From an uncultured Marvinbryantia sp. (GTDB taxonomy: Bacteria > Bacillota > Clostridia > Lachnospirales > Lachnospiraceae), in contig CAKRVB010000029.1 in NCBI GenBank assembly GCA_934408725.1, positions 1 to 34,450 on the forward strand: a stretch of 34,450 nucleotides of DNA, read 5' to 3'. The position numbers and the translations under genes were made by a program. The notes under the pieces are model-generated. The model was given only the letters and a program-made list of their open reading frames with translations, had not been told where the DNA came from and did no database searches. Shown in pieces: positions 17,645 through 29,243 of this stretch (position 1 is the stretch's first letter; every line of letters begins with the position of its first letter).

Positions 17645-20251
17645 TTATTTTCCATAATAGGATTTCAGATACAGTTCTTTGATTTCCGTAATCAATGGAT
17701 ATCTTGGGTTGGCACCGGTACACTGGTCATTAAAGGCCTGTTCGGACATCTCGTCCAAAGTATCCAGGAACTTCTTTTCATCGATGTTATACTCTTTGAT
17801 CGTTGGTTTGATCTCGATGGTACGCATCAGTTCATCCAGTTTTGCCAGAAGTTTTTCAAATACTTCCTGATCATTTTTACCGGTCAGCCCTACATATCTT
17901 CCGATTTCTGCATAGCGCTGAAGGGTATGTGGATACTGATACTGTGGGAAAGTACCCATCTTAGTCGGCACCTCAGCACTGTTATAGCGCATTACGTTTA
18001 ACAATACCAGAGCATTTGCAATACCGTGAGGAAGATGATGGAATGCTCCCAGCTTATGTGCCAGAGAATGGTTCAGACCCAGGAATGCATTGGCGAAAGC
18101 CATACCTGCCATACAGGAAGCATTTGCCATATGATCTCTTGCTTCTACATCATTACCATCTTTATAAGCTCTCGGAAGATAATCGAATACCAGCTTGATC
18201 GCACGAAGCGCAAGACTGTCCGTATAATCAGATGCCATAACGGAAACATAGGCCTCAATGGCATGGGTCATAACATCAATACCAGATGCACAGGTCAGAC
18301 CCTTTGGTGCACTCATCATATTGTCAGTATCTACAATGGACATATTCGGCATTAATTCATAATCAGCCAGCGGCCATTTGATTCCAGTCTCACGGTCGGT
18401 AATGATCGCAAATGGGGTCACTTCAGATCCGGTACCGGATGAAGTAGGGATTGCGATAAAATAAGCTTTCTTTCCCATCTTAGGATACGTGTAGACTCTC
18501 TTACGGATATCCATGAAATCCATGGACATTTCTGAGAAATCTGCATCTGGATTTTCATATAATACCCACATGATTTTTCCGGCATCCATAGCAGATCCGC
18601 CGCCCATTGCAATAATACAGTCTGGTTCGAAGGCTCTCATTGCTGCCGCCCCTGCTCTTGCACTTGCCAGAGACGGATCTGGTTCTACATCAGAGAAACA
18701 GGTATGTACAATACCCATCTGATCCAGTTTGTCTTCTATCTTCTTTGTAAAACCATTCTTATACAGGAAAGAGTCAGTAACAATAAAGCATCTCTTCTTA
18801 CCCATGACATTTTTCAGTTCATCCAGGGCAACAGGGGTACAGCCCTTCTTAAAATATACCTTTTCCGGAGTGCGCATCCAAAGCATGTTTTCTCTCCTTT
18901 CTGCAACGGTCTTAATATTGATCAGATGTCTGACACCCACGTTCTCAGAAACAGAGTTGCCACCCCAGCTTCCACATCCCAGTGTCAGAGACGGAGCCAG
19001 TCTGAAGTTGTACAGATCTCCGATACCACCCTGTGAGGAAGGAGTATTGATCAAAATACGGCAGGTCTTCATCATAGCTGCATGCTTTGCCATTTTTTCT
19101 TTTTCATTTACATTAATGTAAAGAGATGATGTATGGCCATAGCCGCCATCAGCTACCAGCTGAGCAGCTTTTTCCAGTGCTTCATCAAATGTCTTAGCCT
19201 TGTACATAGCCAGAACAGGAGACAGTTTCTCATGAGCAAATGGTTCACTGATATCTACAGAATCCACTTCACCGATCAGGATCTTTGTCTCTTCCGGTAC
19301 TTCTACTCCTGCCATCTTTGCAATGGTAGCTGCTTTCTGACCAACAATCTTGGCATTTAAAGCACCATTAATCAAGATCGTGGATCTTACCTTATCCAGT
19401 TCCTCTTTTTTCAGGAAATAGCAGCCACGGTACTTGAATTCTTCTTTTACTGCCTTGTATACACTTTCCAGAACTGTAACAGACTGTTCCGATGCACAGA
19501 TCATACCATTATCAAATGTCTTGGAATGAATAATAGAGTTCACTGCCATCTTCACATCTGCTGTGTCATCAATAATCACAGGAGTATTACCAGGACCTAC
19601 GCCCAGTGCAGGCTTTCCGGATGAATAAGCTGCCTTCACCATACCCGGACCGCCGGTAGCCAGTATACAGTCTGCTTCCTGCATCACTTTATTGGTCAGT
19701 TCCAAGGATGGAACATCAATGCATTTGATGATACCTTCCGGTGCACCTGCTGCTACTGCAGCATCCAAAACAATCTTTGCAGCTGCTGCGGTACAGTTCT
19801 TAGCCCGCGGATGTGGACTGATAATAATACCATTTCGTGTCTTCAGACAGATCAGCGTCTTAAAAATAGCGGTAGACGTAGGATTCGTGGTAGGTATCAC
19901 TGCCGCAATCACTCCAAGAGGTTCCGCAATTTTGGTAATACCATAGACAGGATCTTCTTCAATTACACCACAGGTCTTTGTATTCTTATAGGCATTGTAA
20001 ATATATTCTGCCGCATAGTGGTTCTTGATTACCTTGTCTTCCAGTACACCCATACCAGTCTCTTCTACAGCCATTTTGGATAATGGAATACGTGCCTTAT
20101 TGGCTGCTGTGGCAGCTGCCTTAAAAATGGCATCCACCTGTTCCTGTGTGTAGGTAGAAAAAATCTTCTGTGCTTCGCGAAGTTCCTTCATCGCAAGTTC
20201 CAGATCCTCCAGAGTTTCAATGGTGTTCTTTTTGATTGTTTTGTCAGCCAT
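17645..20251 (-). CDS. adhE: Bifunctional acetaldehyde-CoA/alcohol dehydrogenase
   Basis: 868-aa fusion that reduces acetyl-CoA to acetaldehyde and then ethanol, using two NADH; AdhE proteins form spirosome filaments. The N-terminal aldehyde dehydrogenase domain (about 1-440) has the catalytic Cys in DNGMICASEQS (near residue 252) and the GPGNTPVIID segment. The C-terminal iron-dependent alcohol dehydrogenase (about 450-868) has MGGGSAMDAGKIM for NADH and the Fe-binding histidines in LNHSLAHKLGAFHHLPHG (about 722-740). Full length, no disruption. ATG at 20251 with AAAGGAGG 8 nt upstream. It has its own promoter (20301-20329), two Rex-like boxes and its own terminator, so it is a monocistronic unit likely induced when NADH is high. 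A separate B12-riboswitch RNA ends 70 bp before its promoter. Confidence 0.98.
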   Translation of the reverse strand: MADKTIKKNTIETLEDLELAMKELREAQKIFSTYTQEQVDAIFKAAATAANKARIPLSKMAVEETGMGVLEDKVIKNHYAAEYIYNAYKNTKTCGVIEEDPVYGITKIAEPLGVIAAVIPTTNPTSTAIFKTLICLKTRNGIIISPHPRAKNCTAAAAKIVLDAAVAAGAPEGIIKCIDVPSLELTNKVMQEADCILATGGPGMVKAAYSSGKPALGVGPGNTPVIIDDTADVKMAVNSIIHSKTFDNGMICASEQSVTVLESVYKAVKEEFKYRGCYFLKKEELDKVRSTILINGALNAKIVGQKAATIAKMAGVEVPEETKILIGEVDSVDISEPFAHEKLSPVLAMYKAKTFDEALEKAAQLVADGGYGHTSSLYINVNEKEKMAKHAAMMKTCRILINTPSSQGGIGDLYNFRLAPSLTLGCGSWGGNSVSENVGVRHLINIKTVAERRENMLWMRTPEKVYFKKGCTPVALDELKNVMGKKRCFIVTDSFLYKNGFTKKIEDKLDQMGIVHTCFSDVEPDPSLASARAGAAAMRAFEPDCIIAMGGGSAMDAGKIMWVLYENPDADFSEMSMDFMDIRKRVYTYPKMGKKAYFIAIPTSSGTGSEVTPFAIITDRETGIKWPLADYELMPNMSIVDTDNMMSAPKGLTCASGIDVMTHAIEAYVSVMASDYTDSLALRAIKLVFDYLPRAYKDGNDVEARDHMANASCMAGMAFANAFLGLNHSLAHKLGAFHHLPHGIANALVLLNVMRYNSAEVPTKMGTFPQYQYPHTLQRYAEIGRYVGLTGKNDQEVFEKLLAKLDELMRTIEIKPTIKEYNIDEKKFLDTLDEMSEQAFNDQCTGANPRYPLITEIKELYLKSYYGK

Positions 20252-20300: not shown

Positions 20301-20329
20301 ATTCTACCCTATTGTTAAATGTTTGTCAA
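20301..20329 (-). promoter_or_regulatory. adhE promoter (sigma-A)
   Basis: On the minus strand a perfect TTGACA (20324-20329) is followed after 17 nt by TAGAAT (20301-20306), a 5/6 match. The start near 20294 gives a leader of about 42 nt. Confidence 0.78.
20312..20329. promoter_or_regulatory. Rex-like operator 2 at adhE
   Basis: TTGTTAAATGTTTGTCAA matches the Rex consensus at 12 of 14 positions (7/7 and 5/7). It covers the -35 and spacer, as the box at rex does. Its start is 35 bp from that of operator 1, so two Rex dimers could bracket the promoter. Confidence 0.68.
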
Positions 20330-20401: not shown

Positions 20402-20438
20402 AAAAAAATCCCCGGCAGCTGCGGATCTGCCGGGGATT
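20402..20438 (-). terminator. terminator of the riboswitch RNA
   Basis: A perfect 12-bp GC-rich stem (20407-20418 with 20427-20438), an 8-nt loop and a run of seven T on the minus strand. It is the strongest terminator in the window. It lies about 175 nt after the last recognisable riboswitch element and upstream of the adhE promoter. Confidence 0.92.
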
Positions 20439-20524
20439 CATGCCGTTCTCTTGTTATGCGGATTAACAAGAATCTCCGGTATGAAGGAGGTATTTGTGTA
20501 ATCTCCTACTTGAGATTCATCCAT
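20438..20524 (-). CDS. possible 28-aa small ORF in the riboswitch RNA
   Basis: An ATG at 20524 opens 28 codons starting MDESQVGDYTNTSFIPE and ending NPHNKRTA, with its TGA abutting the terminator stem. It follows directly, in the same frame, the TGA of a 17-codon ORF (20525-20578, starting MGEQAHFCSND), forming a TGA-ATG junction. No Shine-Dalgarno stands before this ATG, so it would need stop-start reinitiation. I do not recognise the peptide. It may be chance in a structured RNA. Confidence 0.25.
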   Translation of the reverse strand: MDESQVGDYTNTSFIPEILVNPHNKRTA

Positions 20525-20578
20525 TCAAATCAAAAGTTCTAATTCATCATTAGAACAAAAATGTGCCTGCTCACCCAT
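20525..20578 (-). CDS. possible 17-aa leader ORF after the riboswitch
   Basis: ATG at 20578, 17 codons, TGA at 20525-20527. The start codon lies in the loop of the hairpin 20563-20586, and the ribosome binding site is poor (only GAG about 12 nt upstream). It begins 35 nt after the riboswitch P13 hairpin. Low-confidence coding call; it is listed because it shares a frame with the 28-codon ORF that follows. Confidence 0.2.
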   Translation of the reverse strand: MGEQAHFCSNDELELLI

Positions 20579-20612
20579 GCAGTCACGTCTCACAAACGAT
20601 GTCGTTTGGTTG

Positions 20613-20807
20613 GATGCTTGCGCTGTATCTGGAGCACATCTCATTTATTAAGCAGGTTTCCTGACTTACAGATCATCGTATGGTTCCGCCTTCTCACATC
20701 TTAGGGTTATGCAATGGCTGTTGGACCTACTCCCTGATTACAGTGACCAGTTCGCTTGGGATTCTCACCCAAATTCCCTTTTCATGATTGCTCATGCACT
20801 TAATAAA
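20613..20807 (-). promoter_or_regulatory. cobalamin riboswitch
   Basis: Minus-strand elements in order: P1 5' arm TTTATTAAG (20799-20807), a small P2-like hairpin, then GGGAATTTGGGTGAGAATCC as the conserved G-rich and GGTG-GAATC core. ACTGGTCACTGTAA follows as L5/P6, then the B12 box AAGTCAGGAAACCTGC. The P1 3' arm CTTAATAAA (20644-20652) pairs perfectly with the first. A P13 hairpin (20613-20640) has CCAG in its loop (20629-20632), complementary to CTGG in L5 (20747-20750), which fits the L5-L13 kissing interaction of cobalamin riboswitches. No terminator or ribosome binding site overlaps P13, so the output mode is unclear. It binds adenosyl- or methyl-/hydroxocobalamin; the subtype is not assigned. 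Confidence 0.88.
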
Positions 20808-20830
20808 GTAATATTCAATTACACACTCAT

Positions 20831-20859
20831 AGTATAGTGCAACACTACCAGTTTGTCAA
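20831..20859 (-). promoter_or_regulatory. promoter of the riboswitch RNA (sigma-A)
   Basis: On the minus strand a perfect TTGACA (20854-20859), 17-nt spacer and TATACT (20831-20836). Start expected near 20824, 17 nt before P1. It is one of the strongest-looking promoters in the window. Confidence 0.85.
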
Positions 20860-20905: not shown

Positions 20906-21712
20906 CTACTTTTTTCGGAACAGATCTTTTAAGATCTGTTCGGCACTCTTCTTCCGGTAATGATCTGGATCTGTCATCACAGATTTGCCGGATATATCCC
21001 ACCGCATCTGATGATAGTCTGTCAGATAAGAAATGCCCCGACTGCAGTCACCGAACTTTTTATACCAGGCTGGATAGTATTTTTTCATATATTTCCTTGC
21101 CAGTTTTACTGCCTGGCTGTTGGTCTTTCCAGACGGAGTTGTGGTTCCGCACAAGGTCACACCAGGTGGACTGGAATGAAGGAAAACGACACTTCCATCT
21201 TTACAGGATCCAATCACCATATAAACATGACCGGCCGGAGTACTCATAATATCTCCTGCTTTATAATTCTTTACTTTCGATCGTTTCGTAAAAGTTCCCC
21301 ATCCACGACTGGCATAATTGCGTGCCATGTTCTGTGCATACAGCACATAACCTTTCTTTCCATCGGTTTCTTCCAGCACATTATAAATACACCATCCAAT
21401 ATACCCGGAACAATCCAGGCCTTTGGATGACTGATACAGATATTTACGATAGTTATAACCTTTTTTCTGCTTTTTGTAAAACTTTTTCCAGGATGTACTT
21501 ACTCCCAGACGTCTGGCTTCTTTGCTGGCACCATTTCTGCTCCATCCGCCACCCCATACATACATGGTACTTCCTACCGGCTGAAGTCCGGTCTGTAGCA
21601 GTTCTTTTATGGTTGTCTGTCTGCCTGCAGCCAACACAGAAGAAGAATTTATCATCAAAATACAGAAAAAACACAGACAACACCATGTTAATCTCTTTTT
21701 GCTTTGTTTCAT
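20906..21712 (-). CDS. Exported NlpC/P60-like cysteine peptidase or amidase
   Basis: 268-aa secreted protein. A signal peptide covers about 1-28: KQSKKR, a Cys/Leu/Ile-rich core, then SSVLAAG at the likely cleavage site. The mature part has YVWGGGWS early, the nucleophile in GLDCSGYIGW (Cys near 99) and the base in AGHVYMVIG (His near 162), then FLHSSPPGV. That is the NlpC/P60 layout (peptidoglycan gamma-D-glutamyl peptidases and amidases). The lysine-rich C-terminus is basic and may bind the wall. Start: an ORF extends up to 21802, but the ATG at 21712 has AAGGGAGAAG upstream and opens the signal peptide, so I chose it. It follows the folD terminator and precedes the riboswitch unit. The exact bond cleaved is not inferable. 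Confidence 0.78.
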   Translation of the reverse strand: MKQSKKRLTWCCLCFFCILMINSSSVLAAGRQTTIKELLQTGLQPVGSTMYVWGGGWSRNGASKEARRLGVSTSWKKFYKKQKKGYNYRKYLYQSSKGLDCSGYIGWCIYNVLEETDGKKGYVLYAQNMARNYASRGWGTFTKRSKVKNYKAGDIMSTPAGHVYMVIGSCKDGSVVFLHSSPPGVTLCGTTTPSGKTNSQAVKLARKYMKKYYPAWYKKFGDCSRGISYLTDYHQMRWDISGKSVMTDPDHYRKKSAEQILKDLFRKK

Positions 21713-21757
21713 CGCTTCTCCCTTATTTCTCTCTTTCCAATTGATCTTCCAAAAAGG

Positions 21758-21792
21758 ATAAAAGACAGTCAGGGGAATCCCGGCTGTCTCTT
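21758..21792 (-). terminator. folD terminator
   Basis: An imperfect stem pairs 21764-21770 with 21782-21788 (7 bp including a G-U) plus two further pairs past a mismatch. TTTT then TTTTT follow on the minus strand. It lies shortly after the folD stop. Confidence 0.6.
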
Positions 21793-21816
21793 TTTCCGTC
21801 ATTTCTTCATAAAGGC

Positions 21817-28270: not shown

Positions 28271-29212
28271 TTAAACTAATTCTTTGATCAGTTTGGAAAC
28301 AGTTGCTACGGATACAGGATGTTTTAAGATTACGGCATCAGAACCACAAGCTAAATCTGCTGCTGCAGTTTCAACTTCCATATCGATACCACGTCTTTCC
28401 TGATCTCCCCATTCTGGTGTATCTGCTTCTGCCTGTGTTGCTTCTTTTGTAGACCATGTCTCAGATGCAACTGGAGTAATGATAGGCATCTGAAGCTGTG
28501 CATCGTTCTGAGACAGAGCTGCAGATTTGATACGCTGCATGGTGGATGCAACATATTCATATCCGTATCCGGCTGCTGCTGTACCTACATTCATAACAAC
28601 AGATTCCGGTTTTACACCTAACTGACTTAATAATACGTTTAACTGTTTTGCAAGGTTGATATCAACAGATGATTCTGCACCAACTACCTGACTGTACGCA
28701 AGGCCTGCTGCTGCACCAACTGTTTTGTAGTTTTCTTCTTTTGCTGCAAGGATCAGAGCATTTTTACCCTGAACTGCTTCTGCTGCTTTACCAAGAAGTT
28801 CTGCATCTCTTTCTGCATTCTTGCTTCCGGAAATAACAAGTGGAAGATCCACTGCTTCTGCAACTTCTTTTACAAGACCGATCAGTTCTTCTGTGGATTT
28901 GTTTGCACCATTAGGATCTCCACCTTCCAGACGGAAGCTTAAGAAATCAACACCTTCAAAAGAAGCTGCTTTTTTAGCGATTTCTGCAATTGTTGAACAT
29001 CCTTCATAATACTTCTGAATGCATTCTGGCTCATGTTCCATACCAAAGTCTGTAATTTCAATACCTACTTTTGGAGCATTTGCAAATGGAGCATCGAAGC
29101 TCTGTAATGGAAGTGCATTTTCGCCACCAAGTGTGATCGCTTTGTCACCTGTTCCGATTGTAACAGTTTTAATGCTGGCATTAAATTTTCCTGATTTTGC
29201 TGTGAACGGCAT
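28271..29212 (-). CDS. acsD: Corrinoid iron-sulfur protein small subunit AcsD
   Basis: 313-aa small (delta) subunit of CFeSP, a TIM barrel that caps the corrinoid of AcsC. Blocks are KTVTIGTGDKAITLGGENALPLQSFD at the N-terminus, PKVGIEITDFGMEH, FLSFRLEGGDPNGANKSTEE, LPLVISGSKNAERDAELL and the PIITPVASETWSTKEA-TQAE-TPEWGDQERRGIDMEV segment near 245-280, all typical. The ribosome binding site CTGAAGGAGG is strong and complementary over 9 nt to the anti-SD-like segment of the riboswitch RNA. It is separated from acsB by 235 nt with its own promoter and a leader hairpin. Confidence 0.95.
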   Translation of the reverse strand: MPFTAKSGKFNASIKTVTIGTGDKAITLGGENALPLQSFDAPFANAPKVGIEITDFGMEHEPECIQKYYEGCSTIAEIAKKAASFEGVDFLSFRLEGGDPNGANKSTEELIGLVKEVAEAVDLPLVISGSKNAERDAELLGKAAEAVQGKNALILAAKEENYKTVGAAAGLAYSQVVGAESSVDINLAKQLNVLLSQLGVKPESVVMNVGTAAAGYGYEYVASTMQRIKSAALSQNDAQLQMPIITPVASETWSTKEATQAEADTPEWGDQERRGIDMEVETAAADLACGSDAVILKHPVSVATVSKLIKELV

Positions 29213-29243
29213 TTTTCAATTTCCTCCTTCAGTTTTCAACCGC

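Follow-up and report, generated by a model that had tools for sequence, protein, structure and literature searches.

A free-standing cobalamin riboswitch

What does a cobalamin riboswitch regulate when a terminator closes it off from the gene that follows? The question is raised by the minus strand of the window (the whole 34,450-nt stretch of DNA from an uncultured Marvinbryantia sp. analysed here), where positions 20402-20859 hold a promoter, a full cobalamin riboswitch, a non-coding tail and a terminator in one closed unit of ~420 nt. A reading made from the sequence alone had claimed the promoter, the riboswitch, the terminator and their closure into one unit, and these were borne out: the promoter fits its consensus at 11/12 positions, the Rfam cobalamin covariance model matched the minus strand over its full length (model positions 1-189 of 189) with 92.4 bits, well over the gathering score of 31.5, and the terminator stem, of 13 pairs here, is followed by T7. 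The features of the unit, and those outside it on which the argument turns, are the following.

20831..20859, minus strand: promoter TTGACA-17-TATACT (promoter scan, 11/12 positions)
20634..20818, minus strand: cobalamin riboswitch aptamer RF00174 (Rfam covariance model, 92.4 bits)
20557..20586, minus strand: attenuator-like hairpin GUGACUGC-AUGGGUGA-GCAGGCAC, then AUUUUUG, a candidate expression platform (sequence and predicted fold)
20483..20527, minus strand: conserved core with UCUC element, ACACAA and UACCUCCUUC (core model R1, 29.6 bits, the window being one of the 12 R1 training sequences)
20481..20499, minus strand: predicted seed ACACAAAUACCUCCUUCAU, anti-Shine-Dalgarno (pairing and covariation with the acsD site)
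20450..20470, minus strand: hairpin CUUGUUA-AUCCGCA-UAACAAG with UCCGCA in its loop (sequence and predicted fold)
20402..20439, minus strand: intrinsic terminator (13-pair stem 20439-20406, then T7)
20301..20329, minus strand: promoter-like site of adhE, TTGACA-17-TAGAAT, outside the unit (promoter scan)
28271..29212, minus strand: acsD, the predicted target gene (NF040759, 478.8 bits)
29223..29231, minus strand: UGAAGGAGG ahead of acsD, the predicted target site (best duplex of 26 window genes)

The attenuator-like hairpin at 20557-20586 was absent from the output of the terminator scan. The next gene downstream, on the same strand, is adhE (start at 20251; bifunctional acetaldehyde-CoA/alcohol dehydrogenase, NF010378, 1376 bits), and the earlier claim that it has its own promoter agrees with the promoter-like site at 20329-20301, past the unit's terminator; a single promoter match is weak evidence, since the scan gave 6 such sites here where shuffled sequence gave 4.8. 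Upstream of the unit, family matches identified a cluster for the acetate-forming Wood-Ljungdahl route (cooS, acsB, acsD, acsC, acsE, acsV, fchA and folD, with acsE named from its pterin-binding domain and its position in the cluster). Of these, acsD encodes the corrinoid iron-sulfur protein's small subunit. Also upstream of the RNA, at 20906-21802, is a gene for a 298-aa protein that matched neither Pfam nor NCBIfam families at E 0.001, a homologue of which (65% identity over 236 aa) is likewise upstream of the RNA in the sister stretch L127.

Occurrence and genomic context in relatives

We read 37 units, in the window and 36 other genomes, mostly of two genera: the window itself, 6 from genus A (the genus of the genome with the first-listed AdhE homologue), 28 from genus B (the genus of G008), and L110 and L111. 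These came from 40 inspected stretches after exclusion of L122, L136 and L142, which lacked a riboswitch plus motif. When the unit's DNA was searched in 22 genomes with AdhE homologues, 15 gave matches, most of which were to other B12 riboswitches; the genome whose AdhE was listed first carries promoter, riboswitch, tail and terminator at a place other than adhE (L081). A core pattern matched 6/8 genomes in genus A and 34/47 in genus B, while its reversed control gave no match on either strand in genus A and, in genus B, 3 on the forward strand and 1 on the other. Under strict filters the core model R1 matched 1/64 genomes of the genus to which the Blautia massiliensis record and G005 belong, and our first core pattern matched 17/397 genomes of the family, 4 of those places lying behind a B12 riboswitch. 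No plasmid relatives were found.

A promoter-like site of at least 9/12 was present in 34/34 units having upstream DNA (L126, L135 and L137, at contig ends, are outside this count), with a 17-nt spacer in 33 of the 34. Thirty of the sites with this spacer lie 164-186 nt ahead of the aptamer's AGGAAACC and three (L139-L141) lie 239-244 nt ahead of it; the scored site of L133 is located elsewhere. A conserved regulated gene directly downstream, as would mark a cis-acting leader, was not seen: the next genes vary, and the units whose neighbours were named have eight different ones, namely adhE (window), the L-lactate dehydrogenase gene ldh (L127), spoIVA (L131), cbiD (L158), and genes for a dipeptidase (L126), a GGDEF protein (L111), a TetR regulator (L155) and a peptidoglycan-binding domain protein (L124). 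L127 keeps the window's upstream gene but has ldh where the window has adhE. The other unit loci, searched up to ~1.5 kb per side, contained no adhE, and the riboswitch was seen upstream of adhE in 0 of the best 80 adhE loci, some of whose contigs (e.g., L018 and L007) end close by. We rejected a leader of adhE on these differing genomic contexts. The RNA and acsD are on one contig and one strand within 30 kb of each other in 13 genomes (G001, G224, G160, G172, G020, G477, G515, G516, G496, G484, G483, G495 and G512), the RNA being downstream by 7-30 kb; G471, on its single long contig, has the two 43 kb apart, and in many draft genomes the two are on separate contigs.

Conservation and structure of the tail

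Compared across relatives, the tail proved to be conserved and its hairpins to covary. Common to the tails are UCUC...CACA...UACCUCCUU, covarying hairpins and the terminator; UACCUCCUU is an anti-Shine-Dalgarno sequence and forms the predicted seed. Twelve diverse units share invariant blocks, including CUC and UACCUCC. In alignment A3, which holds 27 of the 28 genus-B units (L130, at a contig end, was left out), 97.6% of cells are paired in the named structure against 89.1% in shuffled alignments, and 15 pairs have double-sided change against 9.2, with 0/500 shuffles as high; when partners were slid, 29-48% of cells paired. The genus-B terminator hairpin encloses an invariant CCGCAA loop and covaries, with double-sided changes in 14/17 pairs. 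A hyperconserved hairpin of genus B, GUACAGA...UCUGUAC, which is lacking in the genus-A units, L110 and L111, has a loop strand that complements the upstream core GGAAUGUUGU; the core (A3 columns 2-11) and the loop (columns 118-128) could form a pseudoknot, a switch or an alternative fold, with one-sided changes only. An Rfam search of nine loci (E up to 0.5) identified, besides the aptamer, only three sub-threshold matches, all outside the tails.

A T-run of at least five follows the attenuator-like hairpin in 10/37 units (the window and nine others), so we rejected a clean attenuator in every unit. Nor is the seed clearly more exposed than the RNA as a whole: in predicted folds it has a mean unpaired value of 0.46 against 0.39 overall, is above the overall value in 22/37 units, and in several folds is partly closed by internal pairing. 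Hairpin loops with UCCGCA recur within one RNA, up to three times in the genus-B hairpins and twice in the window (20450-20470 and 20406-20439). As UCCGCA occurs in 3/1211 background hairpins, the window's own counted in, a generic terminator loop is ruled out by rarity.

A predicted seed matched to the acsD ribosome-binding site

The sequence-only reading proposed no function for the RNA, and one is supplied by the seed, which covaries with the acsD ribosome-binding site. Among predicted duplexes for 26 genes of the window that of acsD is the strongest (-16.2) and that of cooS the second (-13.8), and 0/22 other Shine-Dalgarno genes pair as well as acsD, whose match is 9 nt long. We found acsD in 27/32 genomes, and in 24/24 genomes its site pairs with the seed of its own genome over 8-12 Watson-Crick nt, where a bare AAGGAGG would give 7; the pairing, flank and exchange tests leave out G473, G476, G506, G006, G514, G515 and G516, for which no seed flank was available. 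Genus A has the seed CCUCCUUCAU with the acsD site AUGAAGGAGG (the match is exact in G471, G472 and G141, and partial in G474, G475, G001 and the window), much of genus B has CCUCCUUGUG with CACAAGGAGG, and in G477 the site UACAAGGAGGUA stands against the seed UACCUCCUUGUA. The RNA has a conserved seed that is complementary to a target ribosome-binding site and covaries with it, as well as the sequence signatures of its own promoter and intrinsic terminator, as expected of a base-pairing anti-Shine-Dalgarno sRNA of the FsrA/RyhB kind.

In the predicted duplexes we exchanged seeds between all 7 genus-A genomes (window included) and all 15 genus-B genomes with a seed in the set. The acsD sites of genus A pair at -16.9 with A seeds and -12.4 with B seeds (exchange cost 4.5 kcal/mol), those of genus B at -18.3 with B seeds and -12.7 with A seeds (5.7 kcal/mol), and for acsD the own seed was better than the other genus's mean in 22/22 genomes. 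The costs for other operon genes (A sites and B sites, respectively) were -0.3 and 3.2 for cooS, -1.8 and 4.0 for acsC, 1.3 and 0.5 for acsB, -1.8 and 0.8 for acsE, -0.7 and 0.8 for acsV, and -2.4 and 1.9 for cooC, so that no operon gene tested except acsD loses more than 1.3 kcal/mol in both directions. The genus-B sites of acsC and cooS prefer B seeds, and their genus-A sites prefer B seeds too; the costs across the operon indicate that B seeds are overall the stronger binders, with only acsD losing much both ways. As seed-specific targets we rejected the other operon genes: acsB, acsE, acsV and cooC for their little gain, and cooS and acsC because they show a gain in one genus, B, alone.

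At the three flank positions, 67/87 were matched in 29 genomes against 43 when permuted (p 5e-5), with 3/3 matched in 13 genomes, 2/3 in 12 and 1/3 in 4; the 15 unique flank combinations gave 30/45 matched against 19.8 (p 0.0026). These permutations are uncorrected for phylogeny, and their main contrast is that between the two genera. In front of 83 background AAGGAGG sites, CAC occurred 0 times and ATG 5 times. Within regional gene sets acsD was the best-pairing Shine-Dalgarno gene in 14/24, and in the remaining 10/24 one to four other genes equalled or outdid it. Each of seven genus-B genomes has 3-7 occurrences of CACAAGGAGG before an ATG, and acsD is the one such place that was seen in every one of them, whereas none of seven genus-A genomes has the sequence at acsD; ATGAAGGAGG matches acsD in 5/7 genus-A and 0/7 genus-B genomes. 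These 14 genomes were picked after their acsD sites were known and the other matches were named in part, so the searches show only how few other places carry the sequence. One such place, in L193 (G492), is a protein beginning MMKEISRRDFLKGSAAG with CACAAGGAGG before its start, and the same string occurs in G008 and G007; this protein is a possible further target of the RNA.

Controls bear on the pairing from both sides. The core model or pattern gave no RNA in 13 relatives (12 from the genus of G005, and G015) and a deviant one in G006; all 14 have acsD sites resembling UUUAAGGAGGC or UAAGAGGAGGC, with nothing but U and A in the flank. All of 7/7 further RNA-positive genomes have acsD with CACAAGGAGG and the seed CCUCCUUGUG, and are close relatives of genomes already used. 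Nine pattern-negative genus-B stretches near acsD, searched apart from the other contigs of their genomes, held the RNA in 2/9: that of G495 matches acsD over 12 nt, and that of G512 pairs with one mismatch and G-U pairs. A fitting acsD flank was also present in genomes where no RNA was found (G473 and G476 in genus A; G485, G486, G490 and G501 in genus B), and for now these weigh against the pairing model. In genus B, acsD is present in 30/34 pattern-positive and 10/13 pattern-negative genomes (four pattern-positive ones are without an acsD match), and we discarded an association by co-presence of RNA and acsD; at least two of the pattern-negative genomes carry the RNA. Moreover, the seed resembles the universal anti-Shine-Dalgarno sequence, so any strong Shine-Dalgarno sequence will pair with it to some degree. 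The deviant RNA of G006 (L088/L122) has the seed CAUACCUCCAUC, which does not fit its own acsD site, and may have another target.

Proposed role and alternative explanations

The unit almost certainly encodes a conserved riboswitch-linked non-coding RNA. Action by base-pairing on acsD is well supported by the covariation, short of proof, and B12-sparing repression is our best reading of it. Starting from what was computed directly (aptamer, promoter, terminator, tail conservation and structure, free-standing position and seed-acsD covariation), we infer a B12 response and its direction, pairing in the cell and repression, and consider it probable that this is a trans-acting sRNA under a cobalamin riboswitch that represses a corrinoid protein under B12 shortage. 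The full ~420-nt RNA would be made or become active while B12 (corrinoid) is scarce, and would be cut short or kept inactive while it is plentiful; analogy with EutX and Rli55, together with the attenuator-like hairpin and T-run in 10/37 units, leads us to expect the RNA without B12, and the units without a T-run would switch by another route, e.g., ligand-dependent folding. The tail would carry the anti-Shine-Dalgarno seed, ACACAA(n)AUACCUCCUU plus flanks, which would cover the acsD ribosome-binding site by pairing, and perhaps also those of acsC and a methyltransferase-associated corrinoid protein, blocking translation and sparing the cell a corrinoid apoprotein that it could not load. We lean, with slightly less assurance, towards the broader proposal of a B12-sparing sRNA in gut acetogens, whose own riboswitch and co-evolved anti-Shine-Dalgarno seed silence the corrinoid iron-sulfur protein, and perhaps others, with no protein sensor. 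If this is true, a central carbon route of gut acetogens would be tuned to B12 supply by a self-sensing RNA, acetogenesis would be tied to the competition for corrinoid in the gut, one riboswitch would act on distant mRNAs through base-pairing, and B12 would have a cofactor-sparing response like that for iron, with a riboswitch replacing the repressor protein.

The iron-sparing sRNAs FsrA and RyhB are switched by Fur and, when iron is scarce, repress the mRNAs of iron-using proteins at their ribosome-binding sites. The action proposed here is alike in that scarcity of a cofactor would induce an sRNA pairing at ribosome-binding sites; it differs in that the sensor would be the aptamer on the same RNA rather than a Fur protein, and the cofactor B12. 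In Listeria, the SAM riboswitches SreA and SreB act in trans, the terminated riboswitch itself acting on another mRNA; the unit shares with them a riboswitch RNA acting on another mRNA, but is a dedicated one with a long conserved tail. With RF00174 leaders it has the aptamer in common, but it lacks a conserved cis gene and has its own terminator and conserved non-coding tail. Further counterparts are EutX of Enterococcus faecalis and Rli55 of Listeria monocytogenes, described in PMC7602753 as sRNAs governed by a B12 riboswitch and made only without B12. Like them, the unit is a free-standing RNA with a 5' B12 riboswitch and its own terminator, and would act in trans; unlike them, it has no ANTAR pair in the predicted window fold, whereas they sequester the ANTAR regulator EutV. 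Its switch is of the EutX/Rli55 kind, yet it seems to act by base-pairing. Among papers listed by searches of an open-licence library, no title or abstract opening described a B12-riboswitch sRNA in acetogens or an sRNA against corrinoid proteins.

Given this precedent (PMC7602753), the hairpins, e.g., those with UCCGCA loops, might instead work as a protein sponge that sequesters an RNA-binding regulator such as an ANTAR protein at low B12. The recurrence of UCCGCA in loops of the RNA and its rarity in background hairpins speak for this, as does the G at position 4 of the loop, the base contacted by EutV according to PMC8934654. We nevertheless regard a sponge as unlikely: the loop has no A at position 1, several genus-A units (L123, L124, L125, L127 and L128) keep the seed without UCCGCA loops, and the covariation between seed and acsD would be left unexplained. 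The sequence-only reading had noticed no ANTAR pairs, and indeed no loop of six bases occurs in the tail as predicted to fold in the window, and inspection likewise gave no hexaloop with A1 and G4. Among the window genes scanned against families there was no eut or ANTAR gene.

Less likely still is an ordinary cis leader, in which the riboswitch would attenuate the downstream gene (adhE here) by read-through. It is true that adhE comes next on the same strand, that the gene after the unit in L158 (cbiD) belongs to cobalamin synthesis, and that in Blautia-type genomes a riboswitch of related type stands before a short Cys-rich frame common to them; set against these are the unit's terminator and the promoter-like site of adhE, the best 80 adhE loci with no riboswitch seen upstream, the adhE-free other unit loci, and the changing next genes (ldh, spoIVA, cbiD, and those for GGDEF, dipeptidase, TetR and peptidoglycan-binding proteins). 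The B12-responsive regulatory RNA suggested in the sequence-only reading, as opposed to an adhE leader, is supported by recurrence in 36 other genomes, by unrelated neighbours where these were named and by a conserved, covarying tail; the riboswitch-controlled micropeptide offered there as an alternative is unsupported. Short frames do exist (e.g., from AUGUUGUCU in genus B), but the frame in the window reads AUGAAUCUCAAG and stops after four codons, the length between CACA and UACCUCC changes by 1-2 nt, and by inspection the tail indels come in lengths other than multiples of three and the units have no start-to-stop frame in common, making a micropeptide very improbable. We give just as little credence to a remnant of a lost leader kept by chance, which would suit the varying contexts between genomes but not the covarying hairpins, the invariant UACCUCC or the promoter-like site in 34/34 units; purifying selection on tail and seed, which would argue against such a remnant, is already indicated.

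Other candidate targets and riboswitch types

Returning to the trans-acting sRNA, we examined nine B12-binding-domain matches in four genomes for pairing with the seed. Two of the nine represent one corrinoid protein (MtgC/MtbC-like below curated cut-offs) and paired at -20.5 and -18.0, while the other seven ranged from -9.4 to -16.2, including two more corrinoid proteins at -10.7 and -10.1. The match of this second corrinoid protein to the seed is 12 nt in G471 and 11 nt in G008. GGAGGUA is present in all of its homologues (identity of 72% or more) from 10 genomes with the RNA, and continues as GGAGGUAU in nine and, in G480, as GGAGGUAAU, fitting G480's own seed; among control copies in G005 and G011, 1/3 had GGAGGUA. 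Exchange of seeds changed the pairing little (own -18.1 against swapped -17.2), indicating little specificity, and a homologue was missing in 14/33 genomes searched. We treat this methyltransferase-associated protein as a lead only.

The searches also brought up other B12 riboswitches. One type, in Blautia-type genomes (L087, L089, L090, L091, L093 and L097), has a terminator-like hairpin and T-run after the aptamer, and a strikingly conserved element, GCCUGUUCGUAUGAAUUAUAC ... UUCCCUCCGC ..., before the shared short Cys-rich frame. We considered this type as a second regulator of acsD and rejected it, as by inspection the element CCCUCCGCA mismatches the Blautia acsD sites. A third type of riboswitch tail, in L083 and L084, has UUUCCUCCGCAACGGG and hairpins of its own.
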